A stretch of 64,000 nucleotides of DNA from positions 77,347,676 to 77,411,675 of the forward strand of contig CM049316.1 of NCBI GenBank assembly GCA_026874595.1. Reading direction: 5' to 3'. Below are positions 12,501-55,194 of this stretch, in pieces. The translations under genes and the position numbers were made by a program. The notes under the pieces are model-generated. The model did not search any database and was not told the DNA's origin. It worked only from the letters and a program-made list of their open reading frames with translations. The DNA comes from Sipunculus nudus (taxonomy: Eukaryota; Annelida; Sipuncula; Golfingiida; Sipunculidae). The stretch's first letter is position 1, and each line of letters starts with the position of its first letter.

Positions 12501-12549
12501 TTTTAGCTCAGCTGACTGAAAGTCATCTGAGCTATAGCGATCACTCTTT

Positions 12550-17200: not shown

Positions 17201-18364
17201 GGGATCACCTTTTGTCCGTCGTCCGTCCGGCCATCCAGGCGTCTGTCTGTTAACAGGGCACAAATCGTAACCACTAGACCGGGAATCTTCTTACTTGACA
17301 TCCTGGGAGGTCTATGGAAATTCTCCTTGTAAACCTGAAATTAGGTCACTGTGACCTATATTCTTCGAGCTATGGGGTTCTGAAGTACCCCCAGAATAAT
17401 GCAAAATTTAATACAAAAGCTCAAGTATCTGAACAACTAATGCATTAATCACCATGATTCTTTGCATGGATATTGATCATGGCGTGTTTCATCAATTTCT
17501 GGAGATTGGTGGCGCAACCTATATTTTTTTTATTTTTACGATTTTTTTTTTCTCTACTTTTGTGATCATTAAACATTTGGTCATCTGTAAACAGGGCACA
17601 AATCATAATGACTGGACCTAGAATCTTCTGTCCTCACCTCCAGGGAAGCCCATAAAAGGTCTACATGGAAACCCGAAATAAGGTCCCTGTTACCCATATT
17701 CTGTGAGCTATGGGGCTCTGAAGTACCCCCCAGAATTAAGATTTGGTCATATGTTAACAGGGCACAAATCATAATGACTGGACCTAGAATCTTCTGTCCT
17801 CACCTCCAGGGAAGCCCATAAAAGGTCTACATGGAAACCCGAAATAAGGTCCCTGTTACCCATATCCTTCATGCTCTGGGGCTCCGAAGTACTCCCCAGA
17901 ATAAAGATTTGGTCATCTGTTAACAGAGCACAATTTATAATGACTTGACCTAGAATCTCCTTTCTTGATATGCTGGGAGGCCCCTGAAAAGTCTCCTTGT
18001 GCACCTGAAATTACATCTCTGTTACCCATATCCTTCATCCTATGCAGCTTTGAAATACCCCCCAGAATAAACATTTGGATTTGTTAACAGGTCACAAATC
18101 ATAATAACTGGACCTAGAATTTTATTTTTTGACATGCTGGGAGACCCCTGAAAAGTAATCTTGTAAACCTTGAAAATAGGTGTCTGTTACCCATATCCTT
18201 CATGCTACAGAGCTCCATAGTACCCCAATGAATATTGGATGATTTTATACAAAAGGTCAAGTTTGGAAAAAGTATTTCATTCAAATTTGACATTCAGATG
18301 ATAAAATTACTTTTGTCAATGTCTTCCTGGTCAGCTGAGCGTCATGACCCCTGGGTCACTTGTT

Positions 18365-21627: not shown

Positions 21628-21649
21628 TGTTCTTACTATGTAGTTTACT

Positions 21650-25200: not shown

Positions 25201-25948
25201 ACGGATTTCCAGACAAGCTTACAACAGACAATGGCCCATAGTACTCGAGTGGTCAGTTCAAACAGTATTGCAGAGAAAACAACATATCACACGTAACAGC
25301 TAGCCCGCATTACCACCAATATAACGGCGAAGCTGAGAGAGCAGTGGGAACAATCAAGCGCCTATGGAAAAAGGCAGAAAGTGCAGAGAGCAGAAAAAAG
25401 CTGTTTTGGAATACAAAGTTACACCTTTCACTGGACTAGAGTTATCACCTGCGCAGATGTTAATGGGGAGAAGGCTTAAATCTAGTTTAATAATGGACAG
25501 TGAGTTACTGAAGCCGAAAACATACCCAGCTGAACTGATACGTCACAAGCTTGAGAAACTTCAACTGAATACGAAACATAATTATAACAGAAATGTAAGA
25601 AAAGAACATTATGACACACTTAAACCAGGTGATACAGTACTATTTCAAACACCATCAACACTGAAAACCAAAAAATGGGAACCAGCAAAAGTTGTGGAAA
25701 AACATGATACACCACAATCTTACATTATTGATACTGGTAACCGGAAACTGCGACGTAACAGAGTTGACCTTCGTAAGTGCCCTTGTCATTTTGAACTAGA
25801 GCTCGTTATGGATGATGATGACATAACTACCAAAGTAACCAATGAACCTGTGCTCGGAGCACCACCAACAACTACGTATACCCAGAGTGCAGCCATCAAT
25901 TTGTACACCAAGCCCACCAGAGAAACCACAAGAGACCGTAATAACTGA
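22290..25948 (+). pseudogene. Gypsy (Metaviridae-type) gag-pol, broken
   Basis: Gag remains begin near 22300 with a W..FEKHIHYY-like segment. A degenerate CCHC zinc-knuckle pair follows near 22925-23030 (CYKCGY, later CKIC before a stop). The protease motif LDTGSPINILP is near 23190. Reverse transcriptase spans about 23360-23890 with FSSLDAKASYCQVPL, LPFGIKSAPE and IMDDILVAG, where I replaces the usual Y before MDD. The RNase H region has VIQCDACSFGLGATL (near 24247). Integrase has the HHCC finger (H..H..C..C, 24850-25010), then D in CGSDLIEF, D in TTDNGP and E in NGEAERAV. A C-terminal segment ends at 25948. Homology jumps between all three plus frames and contains stops, for example after TTDNGP. 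The copy is not functional. Confidence 0.93.
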
Positions 25949-29123: not shown

Positions 29124-29598
29124 TCTGTTGGGGTCCGTTTGTGTATTTAGTCAGACCCGGGAGAGACCAACGGCCTCGGGGCCGAGTGTCGCTAGGTCCC
29201 CTTGCTTAAAAGCCGAGTGTCTCTTGGGCCGAGTGTCTCTTGTGCCGAGTGTCCCACGGGCCGAGTGTCCCACGGGCCGAGAGTCGCTAGGGCCGAGTTA
29301 GAGTTAGGCCAGCGATTAATACTGTGGAGTCCGAGTACGGGGTCCGAGTCAGGGTTTTATCAAGTACCGGACCGAGAGTTCCTGTATTCGCTGATGTAAG
29401 TTGTCTTTAATACATTATCACTGACTTCATATACAATTAGGTCATTTCCTAGACATTTCCCGTATCGCTAAGAACACAGATTATAATATAAATCATATAT
29501 CTAAATAGTAAAGAAAACGTGAAAAAAAGTGTCTCACGGTTGGTGGAACGGACTATAGATCTAGGCAAACTTCAATACCTGCACATAGCACATAGTGC
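29124..29598. repeat. Interrupted LTR-like flank with GCCGAGTGTC repeats
   Basis: From 29175 to 29300 a roughly 16-18 bp unit (GGGCCGAGTGTCCCAC and variants) repeats about seven times. AT-rich sequence with TTGTCTTTAATACATTATC (29400 onward) follows. It continues the sequence cut by the hAT insertion and may be the second part of a retrotransposon LTR. No gene is seen. Confidence 0.5.
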
Positions 29599-29617
29599 TA
29601 CAAGTACCTGCTCGCCT
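29599..29617. repeat. 19-bp direct repeat, left flank of giant element
   Basis: TACAAGTACCTGCTCGCCT, identical to 48876-48894. It abuts the outermost base of the left inverted repeat, so it behaves as a target-site duplication of unusual length. Confidence 0.85.
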
Positions 29618-29925
29618 ACGACTGTGAAGTTCGACGGACGTCCGACGTCCATTTTTCGTGAAAGTGCTCCGTGAATGCCTGCTATTCCTCCGCTTTTAGC
29701 CGGAAACATATTTCCCTGACCAGCCTTCTGTTCACCGCTTTGTAGTGTATTTCGCTGATCATCGCTGCCCTCAAGGCTTCGTCAAGATCATGTATATCAA
29801 ACGGTGCCAATACACGCTTTCTAATAGAAAAATTTTACTATTAATAATACTAATAATGCGACTATTATTCTTTTTTTTTTTAAATCTGCTTGATATAAAA
29901 AAATTTATAAAATTTTTTATCATTT
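29618..29925 (+). repeat. Left terminal inverted repeat, unique part
   Basis: About 305 bp matches the reverse complement of 48585-48875 with scattered mismatches and small indels. It includes a 26-bp satellite-like piece (CGACTATTATTC plus a T run, 29859-29883) followed by AAATCTGCTTGATATAAA. The arm then enters the tandem array. Confidence 0.9.
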
Positions 29926-32900
29926 TTTTTTAATTTAGCGTGAATTTTAAAGTGTTATTTATCTTTAAATACGCTAAACAACCCATCACGTTTGGTATAA
30001 ACGGAAAGAACTTTTTACTGGTAGTCACATGGTATGAATTTTAGAGTGGCACAAGTGACCGTTTTAGAGCAGTCAGGTACGACTATTATTCAATTTTATT
30101 TTAATTTAGCGTGAATTTTAAAGTGTTATTAATCTTTAAATACGCTAAACAACCCATCAAGTTTGGTATAAATGGAAAGAACTTTTTACTGGTAGTTACA
30201 TGGTATGAATTTTAGAGTGGCACAAGTGAGCGTTTTAGAGCAGTCAAGTACGACTTTTATTCAAATTTTTTAATTTAGCGTAAATTTTAGAGTATTATAC
30301 ATCTTTAACTACGCTAAACAACTGATCAAGTTTGGTATCAACGGAAAGAACTTTTCACTTGTAGTCTTATGGTATAAATTTTAGAGAGGCACAAGTGAGC
30401 GTTTTAGAGCAGTCAAGTACGACTTTTATTCAAATTTTTTAATTTAGCGTGAATTTTAGAGTATTATACATCTTTAAATACTCTAAACAACCCATCAAGT
30501 TTGGTATCAACGGAAAGGACATTTTACTGGTATTCACCTGGTATGAATTTTAGAGTGGCACAAGTGAGCGTTTTAGAGCAGTCAAATACGACTATTATTC
30601 AATTTTATTTTAATTTAGCGTGAATTTTAAAGTGTTATAAAATTTTAATTACGCTAAACAACCCATCAAGTTTGGTATCAACGGAAAGAACTTTTCACTG
30701 GTAGTCTTATGGTATGAATTTTAGAGTGGCACAAGTGAGCGTTTTAGAGCAGTCAAGTACGACTTTTATTCAAATTTTTTAATTTAGCGTGAATTTTAAA
30801 GTATTATACATCTTTAAATACGCTAAACAACCCATCAAGTTTGATATCAACGGAAAGGACTTTTTACTGGTATTCACATGGTATGAATTTTAGAGTGGCA
30901 CAAGTGTGCGTTTTAGAGCAGTCAGATACGACTATTATTCATTTTTTTAAAATTTAGCGTGAATTTTAAAGTGTTATTAATCTTTAAATACGCTAAACAA
31001 CCCATCACGTTTGGTATCAACGGAAAGAACTTTTTACTGGTAGTCACATGGTATGAATTTTAGAGTGGCACAAGTGACCGTTTTAGAGCAGTCAGGTACG
31101 ACTATTATTCAATTTTATTTTAATTTAGCGTGAATTTTAAAGTGATATAAAATTTTAATTACGCTAAACAACCCATCAAGTTTGGTATCAACGGAAAGAA
31201 CTTTTCACTGGTAGTCTTATGGTATGAATTTTAGAGTGGCACAAGTGAGCGTTTTAGAGCAGTCAAATACGACTATTATTCAATTTTATTTTAATTTAGC
31301 GTGAATTTTAAAGTGTTATAAAATTTTAATTACGCTAAACAACCCATCAAGTTTGGTATCAACGGAAAGGACTTTTTACTGATATTCACATGGTATGAAT
31401 TTTAGAGTGGCACAAGTGTGCGTTTTAGAGCAGTCAGATACGACTATTATTCATTTTTTTTAAAATTTAGCGTGAATTTTAAAGTGTTATTAGTCTTTAA
31501 ATACGCTAAACAACCCATCACGTTTGGTATAAACGGAAAGAACTTTTTACTGGTATTCACATTGTATGAATTTTAGAGTGGCACAAGTGTGCGTTTTAGA
31601 GCAGTCAGATACGACTATTATTCATTTTTTTTTAAATTGAGCGTGAATTTTAAAGTGTTATTAATCTTTAAATACGCTAAACAACCCATCACGTTTGGTA
31701 TAAACGGAAAGAACTTTTTACTGGTGGTCACATGGTATGAATTTTAGAGTGGCACAAGTGAGCGTTTTAGAGCAGTCAAATACGACTATTATTCAATTTT
31801 ATTTTAATTTAGCGTGAATTTTAAAGTGTTATAAAATTTTAATTACGCTATACAACCCATAAAGTTTGGTATCAACGGAGAGTACCTTTTACTGGTATTC
31901 ACATGGTATGAATTTTAGAGTGGCACAAGTGAGCGTTTTAGAGCAGTCAAGTACGACTGTTATTAATTTCTTTTTTAATTTAGCGTGAATTTTAAAGTAT
32001 TATACATCTTTAAATACGCTAAACAACCCATCAAGTTTGGTATCAACGGAAAGGACTTTTTACTGGTTTTCACATGGTATGAATTTTAGAGTGGCACAAG
32101 TGAGTGTTTTAGAGCAGTCAAATACGACTATTATTCAATTTTATTTTAATTTAGCGTGAATTTTAAAGTGATATAACATTTTAATTACGCTAAACAACCC
32201 ATCAAGTTTGGTATCAACGGAAAGAACTTTTCACTGGTAGTCTTATGGTATGAATTTTAGAGTGGCACAAGTGAGCGTTTTAGAGCAGTCAAGTACGACT
32301 TTTATTCAATTTTTTTTATTTAGCGTGAATTTTAAAGTATTATACATCTTTAAATACGCTAAACAACCCATCACGTTTGGTATAAACGGAAAGAAATTTT
32401 AACTGGTAGTCACATGGTATGAAAATAGAGTGGCACAAGTGAGCGTTTTAGAGCAGTCAAATACGACTATTATTCAATTTTATTTTAATTTAGCGTGAAT
32501 TTTAAAGTGTTATAAAATTTTAATTACGCTAAACAACCCATCAACTTTGGTATCAATGGAAAGTACCTTTTACTGGTATTCACATGGTATGAATTTTAGA
32601 GTGGCACAAGTGAGCGTTTTAGAGCAGTCAAGTACGACTGTTATTAATTTTTTTTTTAATTTAGCGTGAATTTTAAAGTATTATACATCTTTAAATACGC
32701 TAAACAACCCATCAAGTTTGGTATCAACGGAAAGGACTTTTTACTGGTTTTCACATGGTATGAATTTTAGAGTGGCACAAGTGAGTGTTTTAGAGCAGTC
32801 AAATACGACTATTATTCAATTTTATTTTAATTTAGCGTGAATTTTAAAGTGATATAACATTTTAGTTTCGCTAAACAACCCATCAAGTTTGGTATCAACG

Positions 32901-35900
32901 GAAAGAACTTTTCACTGGTAGTCTTATGGTATGAATTTTAGAGTGGCACAAGTGAGCGTTTTAGAGCAGTCAAGTACGACTTTTATTCAATTTTTTTTAT
33001 TTAGCGTGAATTTTAAAGAATTATACATCTTTAAATACGCTAAACAACCCATCACGTTTGGTATAAACGGAAAGAAATTTTAACTGGTAGTCACATGGTA
33101 TGAAAATAGAGTGGCACAAGTGAGCGTTTTAGAGCAGCTAAATACGACTATTATTCAATTTTATTTTAATTTAGCGTGAATTTTAAAGTGTTATAAAATT
33201 TTAATTACGCTAAACAACCCATCAACTTTGGTATCAATGGAAAGTACCTTTTACTGGTATTCACATGGTATGAATTTTAGAGTGGCACAAGTGAGCGTTT
33301 TAGAGCAGTCAAGTACGACTATTATTAATTTTTTTTTTAATTTAGCGTGAATTTTAAAGTATTATACATCTTTAAATACGCTAAACAACCCATCAAGTTT
33401 GGTATCAACGGAAAATACTTTTTACTGGTATTCACATGGTATGAATTTTAGAGTGGCACAAGTGAGTGTTTTAGAGCAGTCAAATACGACTATTATTCAA
33501 TTTTCTTTTAATTTAGCGTGAATTTTAAAGTGATAGAAAATTTTAAATACGCTAAACAACCCATCAAGTTTGGTATTAACGGAAAGGACTTTTTACTGGT
33601 ATTCATATGGTATGAATTTTAGAGTGGCACAAGTGAGCGTTTTAGAGCAGTCAGATACGACTATTATTCATTTTTTTAAATTTAGCGTGAATTTTAAAGT
33701 GTTATTAATCTTTAAATACGCTAAACAACCCATTACGTTTGGTATAAACGGAAAGAACTTTTTACTGGTGGTCACATGGTATGAATTTTAGAGTGGCACA
33801 AGTGAGCGTTTAAGAGCAGTCAAATACGACTATTATTCAATTTTATTTTAATTTAGCGTGAATTTTAAAGTGTTATAAAATTTTAATTACGCTAAACTAC
33901 CCATAAAGTTTGGTATCAACGGAAAGTACCTTTTACTGGTATTCACATGGTATGAATTTTAGAGTGGCACAAGTGAGCGTTTTAGAGCAGTCAAGTACGA
34001 CTCTTATTAATTTTTTTTTTAATTTAGCGTGAATTTTAAAGTATTATACATCTTTAAATACGCTAAACAACCCATCAAGTTTGGTATCAACGGAAAGGAC
34101 TTTTTACTGGTTTTCACATGGTATGAATTTTAGAGTAGCACAAGTGAGTGTTTTAGAGCAGTCAAATACGACTATTATTCAATTTTATTTTAATTTAGCG
34201 TGAATTTTAAAGTGTTATTAATCTTTAAATACGCTAAACAACCCATCACGTTTGGTATCAACGGAAAGAACTTTTTACTGGTAGTCACATGGTATGAATT
34301 TTAGAGTGGCACAAGTGACCGTTTTAGAGCAGTCAGGTACGACTATTATTCAATTTTATTTTAATTTAGCGTGAATTTTAAAGTGATATAAAATTTTAAT
34401 TACGCTAAACAACCCATCAAGTTTGGTATCAACGGAAAGAACTTTTCACTGGTAGTCTTATGGTATGAATTTTAGAGTGGCACAAGTGAGCGTTTTAGAG
34501 CAGTCAAATACGACTATTATTCAATTTTATTTTAATTTAGCGTGAATTTTAAAGTGTTATAAAATTTTAATTACGCTAAACAACCCATCAAGTTTGGTAT
34601 CAACGGAAAGGACTTTTTACTGATATTCACATGGTATGAATTTTAGAGTGGCACAAGTGTGCGTTTTAGAGCAGTCAGATACGACTATTATTCATTTTTT
34701 TTTAAATTTAGCGTGAATTTTAAAGTGTTATTAGTCTTTAAATACGCTAAACAACCCATCACGTTTGGTATAAACGGAAAGAACTTTTTACTGGTATTCA
34801 CATTGTATGAATTTTAGAGTGGCACAAGTGTGCGTTTTAGAGCAGTCAGATACGACTATTATTCATTTTTTTTTAAATTTAGCGTGAATTTTAAAGTGTT
34901 ATTAATCTTTAAATACGCTAAACAACCCATCACGTTTGGTATAAACGGAAAGAACTTTTTACTGGTGGTCACATGGTATGAATTTTAGAGTGGCACAAGT
35001 GAGCGTTTTAGAGCAGTCAAATACGACTATTATTCAATTTTATTTTAATTTAGCGTGAATTTTAAAGTGTTATAAAATTTTAATTACGCTAAACAACCCA
35101 TAAAGTTTGGTATCAACGGAGAGTACCTTTTACTGGTATTCACATGGTATGAATTTTAGAGTGGCACAAGTGAGCGTTTTAGAGCAGTCAAGTACGACTG
35201 TTATTAATTTCTTTTTTAATTTAGCGTGAATTTTAAAGTATTATACATCTTTAAATACGCTAAACAACCCATCAAGTTTGGTATCAACGGAAAGGACTTT
35301 TTACTGGTTTTCACATGGTATGAATTTTAGAGTGGCACAAGTGAGTGTTTTAGAGCAGTCAAATACGACTATTATTCAATTTTATTTTAATTTAGCGTGA
35401 ATTTTAAAGTGATATAACATTTTAATTACGCTAAACAACCCATCAAGTTTGGTATCAACGGAAAGAACTTTTCACTGGTAGTCTTATGGTATGAATTTTA
35501 GAGTGGCACAAGTGAGCGTTTTAGAGCAGTCAAGTACGACTTTTATTCAATTTTTTTTATTTAGCGTGAATTTTAAAGTATTATACATCTTTAAATACGC
35601 TAAACAACCCATCACGTTTGGTATAAACGGAAAGAAATTTTAACTGGTAGTCACATGGTATGAAAATAGAGTGGCACAAGTGAGCGTTTTAGAGCAGTCA
35701 AATACGACTATTATTCAATTTTATTTTAATTTAGCGTGAATTTTAAAGTGTTATAAAATTTTAATTACGCTAAACAACCCATCAACTTTGGTATCAATGG
35801 AAAGTACCTTTTACTGGTATTCACATGGTATGAATTTTAGAGTGGCACAAGTGAGCGTTTTAGAGCAGTCAAGTACGACTGTTATTAATTTTTTTTTTAA

Positions 35901-38445
35901 TTTAGCGTGAATTTTAAAGTATTATACATCTTTAAATACGCTAAACAACCCATCAAGTTTGGTATCAACGGAAAGGACTTTTTACTGGTTTTCACATGGT
36001 ATGAATTTTAGAGTGGCACAAGTGAGTGTTTTAGAGCAGTCAAATACGACTATTATTCAATTTTATTTTAATTTAGCGTGAATTTTAAAGTGATATAACA
36101 TTTTAGTTTCGCTAAACAACCCATCAAGTTTGGTATCAACGGAAAGAACTTTTCACTGGTAGTCTTATGGTATGAATTTTAGAGTGGCACAAGTGAGCGT
36201 TTTAGAGCAGTCAAGTACGACTTTTATTCAATTTTTTTTATTTAGCGTGAATTTTAAAGAATTATACATCTTTAAATACGCTAAACAACCCATCACGTTT
36301 GGTATAAACGGAAAGAAATTTTAACTGGTAGTCACATGGTATGAAAATAGAGTGGCACAAGTGAGCGTTTTAGAGCAGTCAAATACGACTATTATTCAAT
36401 TTTATTTTAATTTAGCGTGAATTTTAAAGTGTTATAAAATTTTAATTACGCTAAACAACCCATCAACTTTGGTATCAATGGAAAGTACCTTTTACTGGTA
36501 TTCACATGGTATGAATTTTAGAGTGGCACAAGTGAGCGTTTTAGAGCAGTCAAGTACGACTATTATTAATTTTTTTTTTAATTTAGCGTGAATTTTAAAG
36601 TATTATACATCTTTAAATACGCTAAACAACCCATCAAGTTTGGTATCAACGGAAAATACTTTTTACTGGTATTCACATGGTATGAATTTTAGAGTGGCAC
36701 AAGTGAGTGTTTTAGAGCAGTCAAATACGACTATTATTCAATTTTCTTTTAATTTAGCGTGAATTTTAAAGTGATAGAAAATTTTAAATACGCTAAACAA
36801 CCCATCAAGTTTGGTATCAACGGAAAGGACTTTTTACTGGTATTCATATGGTATGAATTTTAGAGTGGCACAAGTGAGCGTTTTAGAGCAGTCAGATACG
36901 ACTATTATTCATTTTTTTAAATTTAGCGTGAATTTTAAAGTGTTATTAATCTTTAAATACGCTAAACAACCCATCACGTTTGGTATAAACGGAAAGAACT
37001 TTTTACTGGTGGTCACATGGTATGAATTTTAGAGTGGCACAAGTGAGCGTTTAAGAGCAGTCAAATACGACTATTATTCAATTTTATTTTAATTTAGCGT
37101 GAATTTTAAAGTGTTATAAAATTTTAATTACGCTAAACTACCCATAAAGTTTGGTATCAACGGAAAGTACCTTTTACTGGTATTCACATGGTATGAATTT
37201 TAGAGTGGCACAAGTGAGCGTTTTAGAGCAGTCAAGTACGACTCTTATTAATTTTTTTTTTAATTTAGCGTGAATTTTAAAGTATTATACATCTTTAAAT
37301 ACGCTAAACAACCCATCAAGTTTGGTATCAACGGAAAGGACTTTTTACTGGTTTTCACATGGTATGAATTTTAGAGTGGCACAAGTGAGTGTTTTAGAGC
37401 AGTCAAATACGACTATTATTCAATTTTATTTTAATTTAGCGTGAATTTTAAAGTGATATAAAATTTTAATTACGCTAAACAACCCATCAAGTTTGGTATC
37501 AACGGAAAGAACTTTTCACTGGTAGTCTTATGGTATGAATTTTAGAGTGGCACAACTGAGCGTTTTAGAGCAGTCAAGTACGACTTTTATTAATTTTTTT
37601 TTATTTAGCGTGAATTTTAAAGTATTATACATCTTTAAATACGCTAAACAACCCATCAAGTTTGGTATCAACGGAAAGGACTTTTTACTGGTATTCACAT
37701 GGTTTGAATTTTAGAGTGGCACAAGTGTGCGTTTTAGAGCAGTCAGATACGACTATTATTCATTTTTTTTTTAAATTTAGCGTGAATTTTAAAGTGTCAT
37801 TAATCTTTAAATACGCTTAACAACCCATCACGTTTGGTATAAACGGAAAGAACTTTTTACTGGTAGTCACATGGTATGAATTTTAGAGTGGCACAAGTGA
37901 GCGTTTAAGAGCAGTCAAGTACGACTTTTATTCAAATTTTTTAATTTAGCGTAAATTTTAAAGTATTATACATCTTTACATACGCTAAACAACCCATCAA
38001 GTTTGGTATCAACGGACAGAACTTTCCACTGGTAGTCTTATGGTATGAATTTAAGAGTGGCACAAGAGAGCGTTTTAGAGCAGTCAAATACGACTATTAT
38101 TCAATTTTATTTTAATTTAGCGTGAATTTTAAAGTGTTATAAAATTTTAATTACGCTAAACAACCCATCAAGTTTGGTATCAACGGAAAGAACTTTTCAC
38201 TGGTAGTCTTATGGTATGAATTTTAGAGTGGCACAAGTGAGCGTTTAAGAGCAGTCAAGTACGACTTTTATTCAAATTTTTTAATTTAGCGTGAATTTTA
38301 AAGTATTATACATCTTTAAATACGCTAAACAACCCATCAAGTTTGGTATCAACGGAAAGGACTTTTTACTGGTATTCACATGGTATGAATTTTAGAGTGG
38401 CACAAGTGTGCGTTTTAGAGCAGTCAGATACGACTATTATTCATT
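29926..38445 (+). repeat. 168-bp satellite array, left arm block 1
   Basis: About 50 head-to-tail monomers of 165-171 bp. The consensus runs through TTTAGCGTGAATTTTAAAGT, ACGCTAAACAACCCATCA, GGTATCAACGGAAAG, ACATGGTATGAATTTTAGAG, TGGCACAAGTGAGCG and TTTTAGAGCAGTCAAATACG, closing with a T-rich tract. TTTAGCGT and ACGCTAAA near the start of each monomer can pair as a stem. Length and bivalve context recall the widespread 160-bp bivalve satellites, but I have not compared sequences. The 70-73-codon frames inside are monomer read-through. Confidence 0.93.
30955..37436 (+). repeat. 3.24-kb higher-order duplication of satellite
   Basis: Segment 30955-34195 is repeated almost exactly as 34196-37436. 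For example, the 73-codon frames at 33570 and 36811 are 3241 bp apart and nearly identical. Inside each copy a four-monomer block of about 664 bp is itself doubled (about 31970-32640 and 32640-33310). The array therefore has three nested periods: 168, about 664 and 3241 bp. Confidence 0.9.
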
Positions 38446-41400
38446 TTTTAGCTCAGCTGACTGAAAGTCATCTGAGCTATAGCGATCACTCTTTGTCCGT
38501 CGTCCGTCTGTCCGTCTGTCCGTCTGTCCGTCCGTTAACCAGGCACAAATCGTAACCGCTGGACCTAGAACCTTGGAACTTGGGATTCTGAGAGGTCCAT
38601 AAAAAATCTCCTTGGAAACCAGAAATTAGGTCTCTGTTACCCATATCCTTCGAGCTATGTGGCCCCAAAGTACCCCCCAGAAAAGTCAAAAATTTCATAC
38701 AAAAACTTCAATATCTCATTAACTACTTGACTGATGGTCATGATTTTTGGCATACATATTGATCATGAGATGTTACATCACTTCCTGCAGACTGGTGGCG
38801 CCACCTGTATTTTTCGATTTTTTACGAATTTTTTTCTCTGTTTTTGAGACCTTTAAAAATGTGAACATCTGTTAACAAGGCACAAATCATAAAGACTGGA
38901 CTTAGAATCTTAATTCTTGACACACTGAGAGACCTATGAAAAGTCTCCATGGAAACCAGAAATTAGGTCTCTGTTACCCATATCCTTCGAGCTATGGGGC
39001 CCAAAATTACCCCCCAGAATAGTCAAAAATTTCATACAAAAAATTTCAATATCTCATTAACTACATCACTGATGGTCATTATTTTCGACATACATTTTGA
39101 TCATGAGATGTTTCATCAGTTTGTGCAGACTGGTGGCGCCACCTGTATTTTTCAATGTTCACGAATTGTTTTCTCCATTTTTGAGACCTTTAAGGATGTA
39201 GTTATCTGTCAACAGGGTACAAATCGTAACGACTGGACCTAGAATCTTTGTTCTTCACACACAGGGAGACCCATGATAAGTCTCCATGGAAACCTGAAAT
39301 TTGGTCTCTGTTACCCATATCCTTTGAGCTATGGCACTCCAAAGTACAGCTCAGAATAATGGAAAATTTGATACAAAAGCTAAAGTATCTGAACAAATAA
39401 TGCAGAGATAACCATAATTGTTTGCATGGATATTGATCATGGAGTGTTTCATAAGTTTCTGCAGACTGGTGGCACCACCTGTATTTGTTCGTTTTTTTTT
39501 ACGAAATTTTTCTGTATTTTTGAGACCTTTAAAGATATGAACATCTGTTAACAGGGCACAAATCATAAAAACTGGACCAAGAATCTTCATTCTTGACACA
39601 CAGGGAGACCCATGAAAAGTCTCCATGGAAACTTGAAATTAGGTCTCTGTTACCCATATTCTTTAAGCTGTATGGGTCCAAAATACCCCCCCCCCCCCTC
39701 CAGAATAATGGAAAATTTGATACAAAAACTGCAGTATTTCAATAACTACAACACTGATGGTCATGATTTTCGGCATACATATTGATCATGAGCTGTTCCA
39801 TCAGTTTCTGCAGACTGGGTGTGCCACCTCTATTTTTTTTCAAATTTTTACGAATTTTTTTCTTTTTTTTTGAGACCTTTAAAGATGTGGTTATCTGTCA
39901 GCAGGGTACAAATCGCAACAACTGGACCTAGAATCTTCATTCTTGTCATGCAAGGCTGCCCATGAAAGGTGCCTGTGGAAACTTGAAATTAGGTCTCTGT
40001 TACCCATATCCTTCAAGCTATAGGACTCCGAAGTATCCCTCAGAATAATGGACAATTTGATACAAAAACTGAAGTATCTGAACAACTAATGCAGAGATCA
40101 CCATGATTTTTTGCATGGATATTGACCATTAAGTGTTTTTATTAGTTTCTGCAGACTGGTGGAGCCACCTGTATTTTTGTATCCGCCAAAACGAAGTTTT
40201 GCGGATACTATGTTTTTGACCGAGTTCCTCCGCCGCCATGGCGTTCGTTTCCAGAGAGCTCCTCGGAGACTAATGGACCGATTTTTCCCAAACTTACACC
40301 TATTATCGGGTCACATGTGAACTGGTGCCTAACCAATTTGCATTGACCTCTGACCTTTCCTCTCTATCCAGTGTCCATTTGTGGGTCTGTTTCCACTCAT
40401 AAACCCTCATATCTCGGGAACCGTTTGACCGATCAGGAAATGAAATTGATACAATTGTAGCCCTTGGATTGCTTTATAACATACACAAAAAATGGTGGCG
40501 CCACCTGTAACCATGTTTGCACAGTGTCCATCTGTTCATCTGCCTTGGGTTAAAATCACTCATATCTCTGCAGTGAATTGACTAATTCACCTGAAATTCA
40601 TCATGTGTATACATCCAGGATAGCTTTCTTGATTTTATGACAGGTGGCGCCACCTACGTTCACCCTGATGACATCCAAGCTTATATCTCGGGAACCGTTT
40701 GACCGATCAGGAAATAAAATTTATACAAATGTAGCCCTTTGATAGCTCTGTAACATACACAAAAAATGGTGGCGCCACCTGTAACAATGTTTGCACAGCG
40801 TCTGTCTGTTAGTCTGCCGTGGCCTAAAATTACTCATTTCTCTGTAGTGGTTCGACATAACTGCCTAAAATTTTGCAGGTTAATACATCGTGGACAGCTT
40901 TCTTGATTTTATGACAGGTGGCGCCACCTACATTCTAGTTAACGCTGGACACATCCAAGCTCATATCTCAGGAACCATTTGACCGATTGGGCCAAAATTG
41001 TGCATGTGTTTAGATCTCACATAGGTCTTTATCATACACAAAACTGGAGGGGTTACCTGCAACGATTTTTGCACAGTGTTTGTCTGTTTGTCTGCCATGG
41101 GCAAAAATCGCTCATATACATGTAGTGGTTTGACTTTTCTGCCTAAAATTTTGCAGGTGTATACAACTTGGACAGCTTTCTGGATTTGTGGTAGGTGGCA
41201 CAACCTACATACACATTTAGGCTGCAGACATCCATGCTAATATGCAACATACCTCACTCTATTTCCCCTTGCCACTCAATCCATGCCTCACTATCCGATT
41301 TTGGCAGATACATGTAGTCACTTGTCGGTTACCCGCATTCTAGTTTTAAAAGTTTACACATTTTTCTCTGTTTTTGAGATATATAAATACAGACTAAATC

Positions 41401-41527
41401 TTGGCCTGTTGGTTAATCTGTTTGATGCTTCAGTTGAATGGGTATATACTACCATTCTGATGATAAAATTTCCTTTTGCGAATCTCTTCCCAGTCAGCTG
41501 AGCGTCATGACCCATGGGTCACTTGTT
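38446..41527 (+). mobile_element. Family A Helentron-like element (A2)
   Basis: The head hairpin begins AGCTCAGCTGACT at 38450, followed by (GTCCGTCT)n. Modules carrying GGTGGCGCCACC follow, and the tail AGTCAGCTGAGC plus TGACCCATGGGTCA plus CTTG ends at about 41525. The 12-base head word GCTCAGCTGACT is the exact reverse complement of the tail word. It sits cleanly in the T-tract of a satellite monomer: left ATTCATTTTTT, right TTTTAAATTTAGCG, as in intact monomers such as 33660. A second kind of head (hairpin at 40179) opens a differently built 3' half. Confidence 0.75.
40179..40208 (+). repeat. Hairpin head GTATCCGCC..GCGGATAC
   Basis: GTATCCGCCAAAAC pairs with GTTTTGCGGATAC around GAA. 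The modules that follow (40370-41230) differ from the 5' half and contain paired GGTGGCGCCACCT words and 'TATCTCGGGAACCGTTTGACCG'-type sequence in two copies about 280 bp apart. It looks like the start of a sibling family captured within A2. Confidence 0.7.
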
Positions 41528-42204
41528 TTAAATTTAGCGTGAATTTTAAAGTGTTATTAATCTTTAAATACGCTAAATAACCCATCAAGTTTGGTATCAA
41601 CGGAAAGTATCTTTTACTGGTATTCACATGGTATGAATTTTTGAGTGGCACAAGTGAGCGTTTTAGAGCAGTCAAGTACGACTGTTATTATTTTTTTTTT
41701 AGTTTAGCGTGAATTTTAAATTATTATACATCTTTAAATATGCTAAACAACCCATCAAGTTTGGTATCAACGGAAAGAACTTTTCACTGGTAGTCACATG
41801 GTATAAAAATCAGAGTGGCACAAGTGAGTGTTTTAGAGCAGTCAAATACGACTATTATTCATTTTTTTTTTAATTTCGCGTGAATTTTAAAGTATTATAC
41901 ATCTTTAAATACGCTAAAGAACCCATCCAGTTTGGTATCAACGGAAAGATCGTTTCACAGGTAGTCACATAGTATGAATATTAGAGTGGCACAAGTGAGC
42001 GTTTTAGAGCAGTCAAATACGACTATTATTCATTTTTTAATTTCCCGTGGACTTAAAAGTGTTATATATATTTAAATACGCTAAACAACCCATCAAGTTT
42101 GGTATCAACGGAAAGTACTTTGCACTGGTAGTCCCATGGTATAAAAATCAGAGTGGCACAAGTGAGCGTTTTAGAGCAGCCTGATACGACTATTATTCAT
42201 TTTT
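41528..42204 (+). repeat. 168-bp satellite, left arm block 2
   Basis: About four monomers in forward orientation between two family A insertions. The last ones carry TTTCCCGTGG in place of TTTAGCGTGA and ATAAAAATCAGAGTGG in place of ATGAATTTTAGAGTGG, so they are more diverged than block 1. Confidence 0.9.
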
Positions 42205-44816
42205 AGCTCAGCTGACTATAAGTCATCTGAGCTATAGTCGTGGTCCATTGTCCGTCGTCCGTCCGTCTGTCCGTCCGTCCGTCCGTCCGTAGATGTGGCA
42301 CGTTTTGAAACCGTAAGACCTAGGAATCCAAAATTCAGCATAATGTTAGATGTCCCCAAGATCTCCTACCAAGCCAAAAACTGGGTCTTTGCGACTTCAT
42401 TCCTTTGAGAAATTAAGGAAAAACCTCAATTTTTTATTTAAAACCTATTTTCACACTTTAGGACTGCCTAATATCAAAACCACTCATCTGTTTTTCCTCA
42501 TATTTCCTATAAATAATCCTCTATATAATTCCTATGTACATGCCAGAAATTAGGTCTGTATTATTTAATTTAAAAAAGTTATGGGCCCAAACATAATGCA
42601 TTTTTTAAATAATCAGGAAAGAAATTTTATCACTTAACACAAAACTTGTTAAAGCTAAGCACTTTTTTTCCAGTAATATTACTTTTATTAATCAAAATTA
42701 AATTGTATACCCAAAATTAGATCAAAATCTTTTAAATTTTTAAAAATATTAGCAAAAATAAAAAATTGGTACCTTAAATTTTGCCCAACTTTGACCATGG
42801 CACGTTTTTTTTCTGTAACTGCTGTGGATTTAATTTTCACAGCATGTTTTTGTTAGCATTTCAACTGTTAACACCAAAAATTTGAAACCAGTTGATCAAA
42901 AACTGTATATTTTATTCAAGTTTTCAAGCACCATGTCACATATTGCTAGTGTTATGCAGTTTGCTAGAGCTCAGCTCCCGAGCTTCAGCTCTAAGTTCCT
43001 TAAATTAGGCATACAGTTAGATTTCTCCAAAATCCCCTACCATGCCAAGAATTTGGTCACTAGGACTTAATTCCTTCGAGATATCAATGAAAAACTTAAT
43101 TTTTCCATTAAAAACCCAATGTTACACTTTAAGACTGCCTAATATCAAAACCACTGATCTGACTTTGATCATATATAATATACATATTTTTCTATACATT
43201 CACTATGCACATGCCAGAAATGATGTCAGTATTGTGTATTTTTTTTAAGTTATGGGCCCAAACATAATGCACTTTGTAAAAAATCAAGAAATATATTTAC
43301 TCCCTTAACAAGGGCATTGCTGAAGCTAGAGATCTTTTTTGTCAGGGATGTAACATTATTTAATCAAGATTCAATTGAATACCCAAAATTAGTTCTGAAT
43401 TTTTCAAATTTTATAAGTTATTAGTATAAATATAAAATTAGTACCTTAAATTTTGCCCAACTGTGACCATGGCACATTTGTTTCCCGTGAGCACTGTTGA
43501 TATAATTTCATTTCATGCACACATAAGGATTTCAGCTTTTTAGTTTAGAAAGCTGAAAGAAATTTGCCAAATATTGTAGCTTTTATTAATGTTTTTTATG
43601 AGACCCTGTCAGACTTTGGCTCTCTCCAGCCCCTCTTGAGTCACCTGTAGGTTGACCTTGTTGACCTTTCATCAAATTATGCACGCTTGAGGGGAGAATC
43701 CAGGCAGCTGATGGCCAGCCACAGTTGATCCAGGTGTTCAGCCCAACTCATCTAGTAGTTTTAACCAACAACATAACAATAAACAATAAATTAATAAATT
43801 TTTATTGGTTTTTAATAACAAATTAAAGAAAAATAGAAAAGGAATTTGTTAGTTTATAATAACAGGAAATTAACTTGCAGTTACTGATGATATAAGAATC
43901 TTGTATTGATGGGTAGAATGTCACATATTCCAAATAACACCATGCAGTCACCTATGGCATTTTTCAGTTCATTTTTAATGATAAAGAAGTAAATCATATT
44001 ATTCATTACTAATCATTAAGGATTATATGAAGGAAATTAATGATAGACAAAGATGCAGTTGATAATATTAATCTAGATTCCTACTGTGTCTAGTGTGTAC
44101 ATTGATGTGAAATTAGTCCAAAATGAATTTTTTACAGTTATTTTTTAATATAAATAAAAGCCATAAAACCAGGTACTTATGATCATTATTTAAATGTGTG
44201 AATTTTGTATATTCTGGATTATCAACATCATTGTTTGGTGAAAACTGAATAAATACCAGACATGGTGCGAATACTTTGTAATTGTATTTAAATACGAATA
44301 TGATTATGTACTCCATTATAAAATTTCTTGCATAAAGAATGGGAACTAGGTAAAAATGAAAGTATATGAATACTCGTGCAAATACTTTCAAAATGTATTC
44401 ATGAATGCATTCATGAATATATTCTTTAATATTATTTTAATAATCATATCAATTATATTTCATTTTAAAAAATCATATGATTCTCTTATTATTTTTAATA
44501 AAAATTATATTTGGGACAATATTTGTAATTTTTTTAATAAATAGTTAAACTCTTATATTATATGTTCTGCTTATAAGTTATATGGCCAAGTCAAAATCTG
44601 TGTGACAGTAGTACTCCATTTGTTAATAAAATAAATGAAATCAATCCTCTTCCCTGTCTCCAAAGGTACTATCAAAATCATACATAAGCTAAACAACAAC
44701 AACTCATAATACAGCTTATATTTATTACCACACAAAACCAGCATGTGCCTCATTTCTAAATAATATTTTTTTATCATATATAACAGCTGAGCGTCGTGAC
44801 CCATAGGTCCCTTGTT
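42205..44816 (+). mobile_element. Family A Helentron-like element (A3)
   Basis: The head is AGCTCAGCTGACTATAAGTC with (CCGT)n. The tail is CAGCTGAGCGTCGTGACCC, then CCTTG, ending near 44815. Its body is a different module of about 670 bp, present twice (about 42300-42960 and 42970-43600), with ATTAGTCTGTATT-like and TATGGGCCCAAACATAATGCA words. It is inserted in the satellite at ATTCATTTTT / TTTTTTAATTTCCCG, the same monomer position as A2. No coding capacity is seen. Confidence 0.7.
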
Positions 44817-45303
44817 TTTTAATTTCCCGTGGATTTTAAAGAGTTATATATTTAAAAACGCTTAACAACCCATCAAGTTTGGTATCAACAGAAAGTACTT
44901 TGCAATGGTAGTCCCATGGTATATAAATTAGAGTGGCACAAGTGAGCGTTTTAGAGCAGGCGGATACGACTAATATTCAATTTTTTTTTTCAATTTCGCG
45001 TTGCTTTTAAAGTGTTATATATATTTAAATACGCTTAGCAACTCATCAAGTTTGGTACCAACGGAAAGTACTTTTCACTGGTAGTCACATGGTATAAACA
45101 TTAGAGTGGCATAAGTGAGCGTTTTAGAGCAGTCAGATACGACTATTATTCATTTTTTTAATTTCTCTTGGATTTTAAAGTGTTATATATTTTAAAATAC
45201 GCTAAACAACCCATCAAGTTTTAGAGCAGTCAAATACGACTATTATTCATTTTTTAATTTCCCGTGGATTTAAAAGTGTTATATATATTTAAATACGCTA
45301 AAC
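44817..45303 (+). repeat. 168-bp satellite, left arm block 3
   Basis: About three diverged monomers of the TTTCCCGTGG/TTTCTCTTGG type. One is shortened: at about 45217 CATCAAGTTT is joined straight to TAGAGCAG. Block 3 ends at the inversion point. Confidence 0.88.
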
Positions 45304-45310
45304 GCTCACT
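45295..45310. other. Inversion junction of satellite arms
   Basis: Forward sequence ACGCTAAA joins reverse-unit sequence CGCTCACTTGTG at a short shared TAAAC/AAACG stretch. The two arms therefore meet in different monomer phases with microhomology and no spacer. Confidence 0.8.
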
Positions 45311-48300
45311 TGTGCCACTCTAATATTCATACTATGTGACTACCTGTGAAACGATCTTTACGTTGATACCAAACTTGATGGGTTGTTTAGCGTATTTTAA
45401 AATATATAACACTTTAAAATCCAAGAGAAATTAAAAAAATGAATAATAGTCGTATCTGACTGCTCTAAAACGCTCACTTGTGCCACTCTAATTTTTATAC
45501 CATGTGACTACCAGTGAAAAGTACTTTCCGTTGATACCAAACTTGATGGGTTGTTTAGCGTATTTTACAATATATAACACTTTAATATCGAAGAGAAATT
45601 AAAAAAATGAATAATAGTCGTATCTGACTGCTCTAAAACGCTCACTTGTGCCACTCTAATTTTTATACCATGTGACTACCAGTGAAAAGTACTTTCCGTT
45701 GGTACCAAACTTGATGAGTTGCTAAGCGTATTTAAATATATATAACACTTTAAAATCAACGCGAAATTGAAAAAAAAATTGAATATTAGTCGTATCCGCC
45801 TGCTCTAAAACGCTCACTTGTGCCACTCTAATTTATATACCATGGGACTACCATTGCAAAGTACTTTCCGTTGATACCAAACTTGATGGGTTGTTAAGCG
45901 CTTTTTAAATATATATAACACTTTATAATCCAAGAGAAATTAAAAAAATGAATAATAGTCGTATCTGACTGCTCTAAAACGCTCACTTGTGCCACTCTAA
46001 TTTTTATACCATGTGACTACCAGTGCAAAGTAATTTCCGTTGATACCAAACGTGATGGGTTGTTTAGCGTATTTAAAGATTAATAGCACTTTAAAATTCA
46101 CGCTAAATTAAAAAAAATGAATAATAGTCGTATCTGACTGCTCTAAAACGCACACTTGTGCCACTCTAAAATTCATACCATGTGAATACCAGTAAAAAAA
46201 AGTCCTTTCCGATGATACCAAACTTGATGGGTTGTTTAGCGTATTTAAAGATGTATAATTCTTTAAAATTCACGCTAAATTAAAAAATTTGAATAAAAGT
46301 CGTACTTGACTGCTCTAAAACGCTCACTTGTGCCACTCTAAAATTCATACCATAAGACTACCAGTGAAAAGTTCTTTCCGTTGATACCAAACTTGATGGG
46401 TTGTTTAGCGTAATTAAAATTTTATAACACTTTAAAATTCACGCTAAATTAAAATAAAATTGAATAATAGTCGTATTTGACTGCTCTAAAACGCTCACTT
46501 GTGCCACTCTAAAATTCATACCATGTGACTACCAGTAAAAATTTCTTTCCGTTTATGCCAAACGTGATGGGTTGTTTAGCGTATTTAAAGATTAACAACA
46601 CTTTAAAATTCACGCTAAATTTAAAAAAAATGAATAATAGTCGTACTTGACTGCTCTAAAACGCTCAATTGTGCCACTCTAATTTATATACCATGGGACT
46701 ACCAGTAAAAAGTATTTAAAGATGTATAATACTCTAAAATTCATGCTAAATTAAAAAAAATTGAATAAAAGTCGCGTCTTGACTGCTCTAAAACGCTCAC
46801 TTGTGCCACTCTAATTTTTATACCATGTGACTACCAGTGCATAGATACCAAACTTGATGGGTTGTTAAGCGTATTTAAATATATATAACACTTTAAAATC
46901 CACGGGAAATTTAAAAAATTGAATATTAGTCGTATCTGCCTGCTCTAAAACGCTCACTTGTGCCACTCAAATTTATATACCATTGGACTACCAGTGCAAA
47001 GTACTTTCCGTTGATACCAAACTTGATGGGTTGTTTAGCGTATTTAAAGATATATAACACTTTAAAATCCACGGGAAATTAAAAAAATGAATAATAGTTG
47101 TATCCGGCTGCTCTAAAACGCTCACTTGTGCCACTCTAATTTTTATAGAATGTGACAACCAGTGCAAAGTACTTTCCGTTGATACCAAACGTGATGGGTT
47201 GTTTAGCGTATTTAAAGATTAATAGCACTTTAAAATTCACGCTAAATTAAAAAAAATGAATAATAGTCGTATCTGACTGCTCTAAAACGCACACTTGTGC
47301 CACTCTAAAATTCATACCATGTGAATACCAGTAAAAAAAAGTCCTTTCCGATGATACCAAACTTGATGGGTTGTTTAGCGTATTTAAAGATGTATAATTC
47401 TTTAAAATTCACGCTAAATTAAAAAAAATGAATAAAAGTCGTACTTGACTGCTCTAAAATGCTCACTTGTGCCACTCTAAAATTCATACCATAAGACTAC
47501 CAGTGAAAAGTTCTTTCCGTTGATACCAAACTTGATGGGTCGTTTAGCGTAATTAAAATTTTATAACACTTTAAAATTCACGCTAAATTAAAATAAAATT
47601 GAATAATAGTCGTATTTGACTGCTCTAAAAAGCTCACTTGTGCCACTCTAAAATTCATACCATGTGACTACCAGTAAAAAGTTCTTTCCGTTTATGCCAA
47701 ACGTGATGGGTTGTGTAGCGTATTTAAAGATTAATAACACTTTAAAATTCACGCTAAATTTAAAAAAAATGAATAATAGTCGTATCTGACTGCTCTAAAA
47801 CGCACACTTGTGCCACTCTAAAATTCATACCATGTGAATACCAGTGAAAAGTCCTTTCCGTTGATACCAAACTTGATGGGTTGTTTAGCGTATTTAAAGA
47901 TGTATAATACTTTAAAATTCACGCTAAATTAAAAGATTTGAATAAAAGTCGTACTTGACTGCTCTAAAACGCTCACTTGTGCCACTCTAAAATTCATACC
48001 ATGTGAATACCAGTAAAAAGTCCTTTCCGTTGATACCAAACTTGATGGGTTGTTTAGCGTATTTAAAGATGTATAATACTTTAAAATTCACGCTAAATTA
48101 AAAAAAAAAATTAATAACAGTCGTACTTGACTGCTCTAAAACGCTCACTTGTGCCACTCTAAAATTCATACCATGTGAATACCAGTAAAAGGTACTTTCC
48201 GTTGATACCAAACTTGATGGGTTGTTTAGCGTAATTAAAATTTTATATCACTTTAAAATTCACGCTAAATTAAAATAAAATTAAATAAAAGTCGTATTTG

Positions 48301-48585
48301 ACTGCTCTAAAACGCTCACTTGTGCCACTCTAAATTTCATACCATGTGACTACCAGTAAAAAGTACTTTCCGTTGATATCATACTTAATGGGTTGTTTAG
48401 CGTAATTAAAATTTTATAACACTTTAAAATTCACGCTAAATTAAAATAAAATTGAATAAAAGTCGTATTTGACTTCTCTAAAACGCTCACTTGTGCCACT
48501 CTAAAATTCATACCATGTGACTACCTGTGAAAAGTACTTTCCGTTGATACCAAACTTGATGGGTTGTTTAGCGTATTTAAAATTT
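45304..48585 (-). repeat. 168-bp satellite, inverted right arm
   Basis: About 20 monomers in reverse orientation (GCTCACTTGTGCCACTC, TTGATACCAAACTTGATGGG, TTTAGCGTATTTAAA). Units near the centre are the CCACGGGAAATT/CCAAGAGAAATT variant and outer units are the TTCACGCTAAATT variant, mirroring the left arm. A block of about 1.1 kb (46014-46620) recurs with few changes at 47160-47760. The short frame at 46988-47188 is monomer read-through. Confidence 0.93.
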
Positions 48586-48875
48586 TATAACATTTTTTAT
48601 ATCAAGCAGATTTAAAAAAAAAAGAATAATAGTAGCATTATTAGTATTATTAATAGTGAAATTTGTCTATTAGAAAGCGTGTATTGGCACCGTTTGATAT
48701 ACATGATCTTGACGAAGCCTTGAGGGCAGCGATGATCAGCGAAATACACTGCAAAGCTGTGAACAGAAGGTTGGTCAGGGAAATATGTTTCCGGCTAAAG
48801 CGGAGGAAGAGCAGGCATTCACGGAGCATTTTCACGAAAAATGGACCTCGGACGTCCGTCGAACTTCACAGTCGT
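48585..48875 (-). repeat. Right terminal inverted repeat, unique part
   Basis: Reverse complement of 29618-29925, from TTTATATCAAGCAGATTT out to CTTCACAGTCGT. A plus-strand frame starting at 48663 runs through it, but the left copy has a one-base length change (CTAAAAGC versus CTAAAGC near the CGGAGG) and an early stop in the equivalent frames, so coding function is doubtful. Confidence 0.9.
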
Positions 48876-48894
48876 TACAAGTACCTGCTCGCCT
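48876..48894. repeat. 19-bp direct repeat, right flank of giant element
   Basis: TACAAGTACCTGCTCGCCT, identical to 29599-29617. Confidence 0.85.
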
Positions 48895-50740
48895 CCGGTC
48901 GCCACCGGTCCGGACTGTGTGATAGATCTATACCATATATCCTCGAAATTAATGTTCAGGTGAGGACATCTATATATATTTTATATATGACCACTGAAAA
49001 ACATTACTGTTCTATTCTCAGCACTTTTTTTGGCACCAAGAAAATGAACATAATATAGTACACAGGCCTATTCTATAGCAATATACAGGACTAATGGGTA
49101 CGGACTAAAACCTGGATGCCACATTTCACATGGCACATGCCAAAGTGCATGGACTAAAACTCGGATGTTGGAAGCCGGATGCCAATATTCAGGGGCGTGT
49201 TTCAAATTAGAGGGGGCACAAAAGCGTGCGCCCACCTAAAATCTGTTAAAAAAATTTTTAAGGAGCACCCAATTTCGTTAATTGTCAGGACGTGTCTAAG
49301 CCTTTTGCAAAATAATCTCAGAAAGTTGGATATAATTTAAGTCCCAGGCCCTAATTAAAACTGTTCACAGGTGCTTGAATTGCTGTTAGTGTTAAATTTG
49401 TTAAATTTGGTCATGTCCTTATAACTATTACTTATATTTCATTTTCCTGGCATTTTTCTCACTATATGATCCATATCTCTGCATTATTTACTTAATATTT
49501 GAGATAGGCTGGCATGAATTAAGGCCCTGTTGTTAGACCCAACAGCCATGGCACATCGGTTTCAGGCTACAATTGAAGTACATGCAAGTTTGGCTGAACC
49601 ATTGTTCAGGGAAAATGACAGATAAGTAATAGTTATATGGAAATGAACCAGAAATGGAACAAATTTAACCGAAATCTATTTAAACTAATAGCAATTCAGG
49701 CGCCTGCGAACAGTTTCAATTTAGTAGGCCTAACAGTATAGGATGACACCCTATAGCTGTGATGGACCAAACAAAATTCTCATTGGAAGCTGCTGCTCAT
49801 GCATAGGTCATGTCATGTTATGCATGGGGCACGACAGTCCTATAAAGGGCGAAAGAAATGTGCATCCCAGCCATTTGTCATTTGAGAAGCATGTATACAG
49901 ATCTTGAGTTTTTAATTGAAATTGAGGGGCGAAATTAAAGGACCTGTACCAGCCAGGAATTTTCCATAGGGCCCAATAAAATGTTTGAAAATGTAGGTCT
50001 CACTTGATTTTATTTTAGCCTAGGAATTTTCAATAAGACACAAGAAAAAGCTCGAAAATGATTAAGTAACATGTTTTACGAAATGTAAATATAGAGTTTC
50101 TAATAGTGAGTGATCCAAAGGAAGACCTTAAAGCATTAAATACAATAAAAATCAACCAATAAAACTTCTAGACTCGATATAATGCCCAATAAATTCAAAG
50201 ATTTTTTTTGTATGATACAGACTAATATTGGTAATATTTTTCATAACACCAGCCCTATTGATAGAAGTCGGAACCTCCTCCACCCAAAGCCTTCCATTTT
50301 CGGTCTGTTTCAACAATTCAACAATTTTATCACAATTATTAAAAATAAGCCCTCGTATCTCTCACGAGGTAAGTCATTCTGAGTATGTCTGGTATTCTTC
50401 TAAAAATAGCCGCTCCTTTCATTTCACAAAGTTTTACGTATCTGTTTAATTGTTCTCTTCAAAGCAGGGTTGGGCGGGTAATACCAAGGCTGGTAAACCC
50501 GAGCGGGCAATAAGCCTTACAACCCACATGCGGGTTTTAATGGCCAATATGATTTTTGATTTTCTTGAAGCATTCTTTTTAATCTCAGAATTGATGCATA
50601 AAATGCATATAATCAAATAAAAAGGAAACTCTACAGTGATTGTCCATGAAATAAGTTTAATACCAATAGATGAGCATCATTACAGATATTAATGAAGAAG
50701 CACACAAGCAAGAAATTGTGTCATGCACCAATGCTGTTAT
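48895..50740. other. No gene seen
   Basis: Mixed AT-rich sequence. CGGACTAAAACCTGGATG at 49098 is echoed by GGACTAAAACTCGGATG at 49152, a short direct repeat. Overlapping frames near 50182-50449 have no recognisable domain. Confidence 0.45.
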
Positions 50741-53539: not shown

Positions 53540-54094
53540 TTGTACGGACTTTTTTTCGCAATGCCTGCAGATATTGGCCTGATTTTTGGTGTGTGGGCAG
53601 ATAATGACCAGTTACAGATCGAGTTCGCGTTTCGTCCCAGTTGACCTACTTTTGAGCGTTTTACGGCTCCTAAACTTAGAAAATTTCATGAAAAATAGAA
53701 ATTTTCATGACAAATACACATGTACGGACTTTTTTTCGCATTGCCTGCAGATATTGGCCTGATTTTTGGTGTGTGGGCAGATAATGACCAGTTCCAGATC
53801 GAGTTCGCTTTTCGTCCCGATTGACCTATTTTTGGGCGTTTTACGGGTCCTAAACTTAGAAAATTTCATGAAAAATATAAATTTTCATGACAAATACACA
53901 TGTACGGACTTTTTTTCGCAATTCCTGCAGATATTGGCCTGATTTTTGGTGTGTGGGCAGATAATGACCAGTTACAGATCTAGTTCGCGTTTCGTCCCGG
54001 TTGACCTACTTTTGAGCGTTTTACGGCTCTTAAACTTAGAAAATTTCATGAAAAATAGAAATTTTCATGACAAATACACATGTACGGACTTTTT
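53540..54094 (+). repeat. 180-bp tandem repeat, three close copies
   Basis: Units begin ACATGTACGGACTTTTTTTC (53544, 53724, 53904) and carry CAGATATTGGCCTGATTTTT, TTCGCGTTTCGTCCC and AAATTTCATGAAAAATAGAA. Two more diverged units lie at about 54770-54945 and 54945-55095, beyond the nested insert. Confidence 0.92.
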
Positions 54095-54095
54095 T

Positions 54096-54730: not shown

Positions 54731-55194
54731 TTATAAATGATTATCAACTTTTGCTAATATTCTAGTTTCACAATGCAATGCTTACAGATACTGGCCTAAT
54801 GTTTGGTCTGTGGGCGCATAATGACCACTTACAGATCGAGTTCGCGTTTCATTCCAGTTAACCTATTTTTCACCATATGACAGATCCTGAACATAGGAAA
54901 TTTCATGAAAGACAGAAATTTTCATGAAAAATGCACATATATGGACTTTTTTTCACAATGCCTGCAGATACTGGCCTGATTTTTGGTGTGTTGCTTGATA
55001 ATGACCCGTTACAGATCAAGTTTGTATTTTGCCCTTGTTGACCTACTTTTGAACATACGACACCTCCTGAACTTTTACAAAATTTAACAAATGTTTCTAA
55101 TTTGCCCCAGGCGGGGGCATTCGTGTCGTTCCGACACATCTAGTCTGTAAAAAAATCAAAGTATTCTCAGATAAACAATTTGCTTATCTCTCAA

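Follow-up and report, generated by a model that had tools for sequence, protein, structure and literature searches.

The foldback architecture, with long inverted ends built of tandem repeats, is already known from described transposons. In Tetris of Drosophila virilis, a unique flanking domain is combined with AT-rich tandem repeats of about 220 bp in the inverted arms, the duplications measure 8–10 bp, and the repeats expand into satellite-like arrays with as many as 66 copies; its authors found no autonomous copy and put the element in the Mutator group on the basis of the length of the target-site duplication (TSD) and of foldback precedent (PMC4079207). Rehavkus elements make 9-bp duplications (PMC6446971), a length also reported for Mutator and foldback elements. 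For Rehavkus-1_TC of Tribolium, the literature gives a size of 9.5 kb, ends of up to 400 bp and a satellite of about 164 bp in the inverted termini, mostly as five and eight monomers, and lists Rehavkus, with its PHD-finger transposase, from arthropods and annelids (PMC10218199, PMC6446971). Tm1, a Mutator/foldback family of root-knot nematodes, is described as having composite inverted ends with internal repeats of about 14 bp, duplications of 8–10 bp in 45 of 53 elements (9 bp being commonest), and MITE-like, histone-hairpin-motif and transposase-encoding groups (PMC3169594). Dispersal of satellite-like tandem arrays by a mobile element is also reported for the Helentrons of Crassostrea gigas (PMC7492417).

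The locus described here lies in a stretch of 64,000 nucleotides of Sipunculus nudus (GCA_026874595.1, contig CM049316.1, positions 77,347,676 to 77,411,675), which we call the window. With a probability of about 0.87, the element at 29599–48894 (Table 1) is a non-autonomous DNA transposon of the foldback type, with a body made up wholly of satellite, and belongs to a family that moves this satellite by cut-and-paste with a transposase acting in trans. Likened by description, Tetris shares with this family the unique end domain, the inverted arms of tandem repeats and the satellite-like expansion, Rehavkus the 9-bp duplications, the long ends and a similar satellite period in the inverted termini, and Tm1 the composite inverted ends and the 9-bp mode. 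In contrast, a middle domain and a further domain in the inner part of the arms are present in Tetris, of which only three structurally complete copies were found, and Rehavkus elements carry a PHD-finger transposase, whereas the eleven copies that were read whole here have no core; the repeat unit is about 171 bp rather than the roughly 14 bp of Tm1; and, compared with Tetris, single elements reach 40 kb and exact 9-bp duplications flank 14 of the 18 other pairs of ends. By the descriptions of Tetris and Rehavkus, it is the coreless, satellite-only body that sets the family apart, and among the literature matches listed no title or abstract opening describes giant coreless satellite foldbacks.

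Table 1 Features of the foldback element in the window (positions within the 64,000-nucleotide stretch)
Feature	Position	Strand	Remarks
Left copy of 19-bp direct repeat	29599..29617	+	Target duplication of outlier length; exact match with right copy
Left terminal inverted repeat	29618..29855	+	238-bp unique part (ACGACTGTGAAGTTCGACGG...)
Degenerate first monomer	29856..29922	+	Links terminal repeat to array
Left satellite arm	29923..38448	+	50 monomers of about 171 bp
Block duplication in left arm	31113–34353 / 34354–37594	+	3,241 bp (19 monomers), 99.3% identical
Nested Helitron-like insertion	38449..41525	+	Putative class; (GTCC)n and tandem repeats of about 337 bp; approximate boundaries
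Left satellite arm, continued	41526..42204	+	4 monomers
Second nested Helitron-like insertion	about 42205..44812	+	Putative class
Innermost left arm	44813..45303	+	Monomers partly rearranged
Central junction	45303..45304	.	Satellite orientation switches
Right satellite arm	45304..48622	-	About 20 monomers
Right terminal inverted repeat	48638..48875	-	238-bp unique part
Right copy of 19-bp direct repeat	48876..48894	+	

The element had first been noticed in a sequence-only reading as a giant foldback-like structure bounded by an exact 19-bp direct repeat. This repeat is confirmed: the 19-mer TACAAGTACCTGCTCGCCT stands at both junctions and abuts the terminal bases (ACGACTG... and ...CAGTCGT), and since identity of 19 bases at both places has, by simple arithmetic, a probability in the order of 4^-19, it is not due to chance. 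The inverted ends were put at about 300 bp, and segments 29618–29916 and 48875–48579 indeed show 95.7% identity over 299 bp; however, the unique part of the end covers only some 238 bp, and a degenerate first monomer makes up the rest. The claim that the ends continue as one satellite in opposite orientations (period about 168–171 bp) holds as well. The giant foldback-like anatomy is real, but there is no separate core and the arms, which meet at about position 45303, are very unequal in length. Two monomers just left of the centre have their best matches just right of it, as expected of a palindrome, the monomer at 44983 matching the one that ends at 45777 by 98.2% and the pair 44812/45950 matching by 95.3%; monomers closest to the centre are rearranged and match more weakly. 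Its two ends are 3.4% apart, which puts the window copy with the more diverged members of the family.

We take the two nested insertions in the plus-strand arm to be Helitron-like; insertions similar to that at 42205–44812 also sit within two other family copies (loci L045 and L051). Helitrons and Helentrons are not known to make target duplications or to have long inverted ends, whereas the foldback has 238-bp inverted ends and its family 9-bp duplications. The satellite arrays of the Crassostrea Helentrons are said to share a single orientation and to lack both inverted ends and a target duplication. In the window, such elements look like nested passengers rather than the carrier of the satellite.

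Several candidate functions or origins of the ends and the satellite were considered and rejected. In its majority version, the terminal repeat (29618–29855) contains on the minus strand an outward-directed open frame some 69 codons long; this frame has no Pfam match and a single, meaningless PDB match (E 1.4), and the repeat was treated as non-coding. Derivation of the satellite from the 238-bp end was dismissed, the similarity for positions 1–235 being no better than that of shuffled sequences. A ribozyme or structured RNA in the satellite was likewise discarded: Rfam at the gathering score gave nothing over the whole window, and at a lax threshold the region 29560–48920 yielded two sub-threshold matches only, each with E above 4 and located within the second nested insertion. 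For tRNA-derived ends, a tRNA scan with bacterial settings found no tRNA.

That other copies should exist at different flanks was to be checked by a genome search with the end, and this search, using the left end (29618–29922) as query against 1.43 Gb, gave 79 candidate ends. Of these, 40 were scored, so that the copy number of the family is a lower bound. The 40 ends, which include both ends in the window, lie on many contigs and form 16 plus/minus pairs, with 8 unpaired ends (4 on each strand). For three of the 4 unpaired plus-strand ends, reading onward revealed the partner, bringing the other copies with paired ends to 18 (15 from the scored pairs and 3 completed in this way). The fourth, a solo end at locus L052, passes from satellite into non-satellite DNA and has no second end within 9 kb; this DNA was examined as a candidate autonomous core and rejected, as it contains no convincing gene, the longest frame being a repetitive one of 179 residues. 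The ends of one copy differ by 0–5% (mean 1.9%, 16 pairs), ends of different copies by 1.8% on average, and many ends at different loci are only 0–0.4% apart. The last figure indicates that the family was active recently, in a burst, and since the ends within copies are no closer than those between copies, the two ends are not copied from one template at each insertion.

Exact 9-bp target duplications were found in 14 of the 18 other pairs, with 14 different words: 12 of 15 in the scored pairs and 2 of 3 in those completed by reading on (GAAGTAAGA and GCTAGTACT). Among the remaining four, the flanks agree at 7 of 9 positions in one pair, two are without a match, and one has a truncated end. 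The latter is the copy at C6:58332450, whose right end (L054 1568) adjoins a short tandem repeat and lacks the final 9 bases, and which cannot therefore be scored; the other three may have recombined or mispaired ends. The window copy is the exception to the family length. Only 3 of 9 positions agree between its adjoining 9-mers, as against 19 of 19 in the 19-bp register, and thus the 19 bp is a genuine exception rather than a 9-bp duplication extended by chance. Dispersed copies that bear satellite arms between different flanks bear out the suggestions that the element is a mobile foldback-like carrier and that it spreads the satellite. It had also been said that copies lacking any duplication, or a 19-mer fixed in every copy, would refute this reading; the former applies to only two of the 18 pairs, 14 having exactly 9 bp, and the latter does not hold as the flanks differ between copies. 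Of the first reading, 19 bp as the characteristic length is given up, and an undescribed or target-primed route of integration is not supported, the duplications in most pairs being exactly 9 bp and the ends fixed to the base.

The target-primed alternative can be made concrete as bilateral or twin priming by an RNA with the 238-bp sequence at its end, which would give an inverted pair with a variable duplication. A length of 19 bp lies within the range of duplications made by target-primed insertions, and both ends of the element are indeed the same sequence facing outward. Target-primed retroelements are, however, asymmetric and produce duplications of variable length, whereas here the duplication keeps to 9 bp in 14 of 18 other pairs, the element is symmetric with a precise end on either side, and a central junction has been inherited between loci (see below). 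Moreover, the window copy does not fully contain any open frame of at least 110 codons, and the other copies that were read consist of satellite apart from nested pieces. This explanation is thus largely refuted and we consider it very improbable.

A similarly slight probability is given to an assembly inversion or false join as the source of the inverted arms. Near-identical satellite blocks as long as those in the left arm (3.24 kb at 99.3%) are difficult to assemble, but many independent palindromic copies make such an error unlikely: this anatomy and matched 9-bp duplications recur together at many loci on different contigs, and short copies of 4.6–6.7 kb have the anatomy too.

An empty site was recognised for the copy at C2:27128610, which interrupts a histone H1 reading frame. 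When its flanks are joined with a single CCTCCCTGG, their alignment to a paralogous H1 gene at locus L025 is free of gaps for 407 positions, with a score of 386 from which 7 mismatches are derived; if the two 9-mers are both left in place, the score is only 378. Judged from this alignment, the gene at L025 is the paralogous empty site of this copy. Locus L025 itself stands beside another family end, located in the 5' part of its H1 gene. The two family members in H1 genes on contig C2 (L034 1201–7881 and L025) are at most about 45 kb apart.

Eleven copies of 4.6 to 40 kb, that of the window included, were read end to end in overlapping or adjoining stretches, and further copies in part only (for example 10 kb of C5a, C6c and C2c) or at their ends. 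All eleven have the order end, satellite, junction, inverted satellite, end. None of them contains a core of its own, unmatched stretches at the junction being about 50 bp at most, and their extra DNA consists of nested insertions, which in the window copy and the copy at C11:50586228 are Helitron-like (putative class). As far as these whole-read copies go the family is coreless; the partly read copies may hold a core.

Central junctions were sampled in 12 copies. One junction is common to three loci (C6b, C8b and C15) and the other nine look different. The C6b and C8b junctions have 42 22-mers in common, the rarest of which are confined to these two places, and the C15 junction, compared by eye from its reverse complement, differs by a few bases. 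Three loci with one central junction imply that satellite palindromes have moved as units. The arms evidently turn over inside: in six comparisons of arms between loci, chosen as the best matches, two were colinear at about 99% over the outer 1.5 kb or so, with identity dropping to 86–95% further in until the shorter arm ended; over that outer part the remaining four reached lower values (77–99% by window). The window copy and the C15 copy contain recent block duplications, 3.2 and 3.5 kb long respectively, which show one way in which this may happen; no such block was found in 8 of 10 other arms tested.

These observations bear on the form in which the element moves. It is somewhat more likely than not that only small palindromes transpose and that giant arms grow after insertion, the 20–40 kb forms never having been mobile. 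In colinear arms only the outermost part is about 99% alike while the inner arrays differ, the block duplications within arms are young, and two of the three copies with the shared junction measure just 4.6 and 6.0 kb. Against this, though not decisively, stands a 40-kb copy on C4 with arms of about 25 and 15 kb and an exact 9-bp duplication, whose ends are only 0.8% apart, so that there was little time for growth; copies with an exact 9-bp duplication span 4.6 to 40 kb. A bolder scheme, to which we give little credence, is that giant coreless hairpins of tens of kb, with nothing but recognised ends and monomers that are perhaps bound by the transposase, are pasted whole, the enzyme occasionally cutting one turn wider (9 + 10 = 19 bp).

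Regarding the source of the transposase, the Mutator/Rehavkus group appears most likely because of the 9-bp scar and the foldback anatomy, the same ground on which Tetris was assigned. The lengths known for this group (8–11 bp; 9 bp for Rehavkus) include that found in 14 of 18 other pairs, though not the 19 bp of the window copy, and the family shows what is expected of foldback-type elements, with long inverted ends built of tandem repeats and dispersed copies that have different flanks and a duplication of fixed length (again except for the 19 bp in the window). That another transposase, such as that of Merlin, drives the family seems rather unlikely. Merlin duplications are 8–9 bp long, and inside the C15 copy there is a 3,110-bp element (L055 2389–5498) with an IS1595-type transposase domain (PF12762, E 1.3e-22), presumably Merlin-type. 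This frame was considered as the enzyme of the family and rejected, since the element is a nested insertion near the satellite/end boundary that has 28-bp ends of its own and is flanked by the 8-bp duplication CATTTTTT. In this one element compared, the likeness of its ends to the foldback ends is a short match, CGACT-T-GAA, which was equalled by 185 and 64 of 500 shuffles and is not significant.

As a non-autonomous foldback transposon, the element would be mobilised by a putative transposase supplied in trans, which would bind the ends, make a staggered cut of 9 bp and paste the palindrome into new sites. The arms would then lengthen or shorten in place through unequal exchange of monomer blocks, the hairpin centre would be revised repeatedly by deletion, and the satellite would spread as the arms of a transposon. 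Points that speak against this account are the three pairs lacking an exact duplication, the 19 bp of the window copy, the solo end at L052 and the fact that a transposase was not found. The 19 bp left by insertion of the window copy may stem from a one-off cut that was wider by one helical turn (9 + 10), or alternatively from a 9-bp duplication followed by a templated repair patch of 10 nt copied from the left flank. The literature searched contained no report joining a 19-bp or 20-bp TSD with Mutator.

How satellites move between chromosomes is an old open question. In this recently active family the carrier, its exact ends, the insertion scar, an empty site and arm growth are all legible in one genome, and because they can be read together, the family offers a testable system for the step from transposon to dispersed satellite. 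It also bears on the cellular tolerance of near-palindromes of 5–40 kb, and the 19-bp scar against the 9-bp rule of the family poses a small separate puzzle on transposase geometry or repair.

Elsewhere in the window, a second tandem-repeat family, with units of about 337–380 bp and half-units of 166, occurs at 12487–18300, 38449–40178 (the copy nested in the foldback) and 59163–59526; it is introduced by a TGTC/GTCC microsatellite and we assume that it represents Helitron-like non-autonomous elements. At 19051–21632 (minus strand) and 23518–25948 (plus strand) lie a BEL/Pao-like retrotransposon remnant (Peptidase_A17, DUF5641 and a weak rve match) and, next to it in opposite orientation, a second reverse transcriptase fragment (23518–23892). 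Positions 1591–4131 hold a 1.29-kb tandem duplication (1591–2857 and 2854–4131, 97.4% identical); towards the end of each unit there is a (TGTC)n run. A separate tandem repeat of about 180 bp is present in about 3 copies at 94% (53541–54095), with related copies at 54775–55085, and at 60179–60283 there is a near-perfect palindrome of 105 bp (99% self-inverse).
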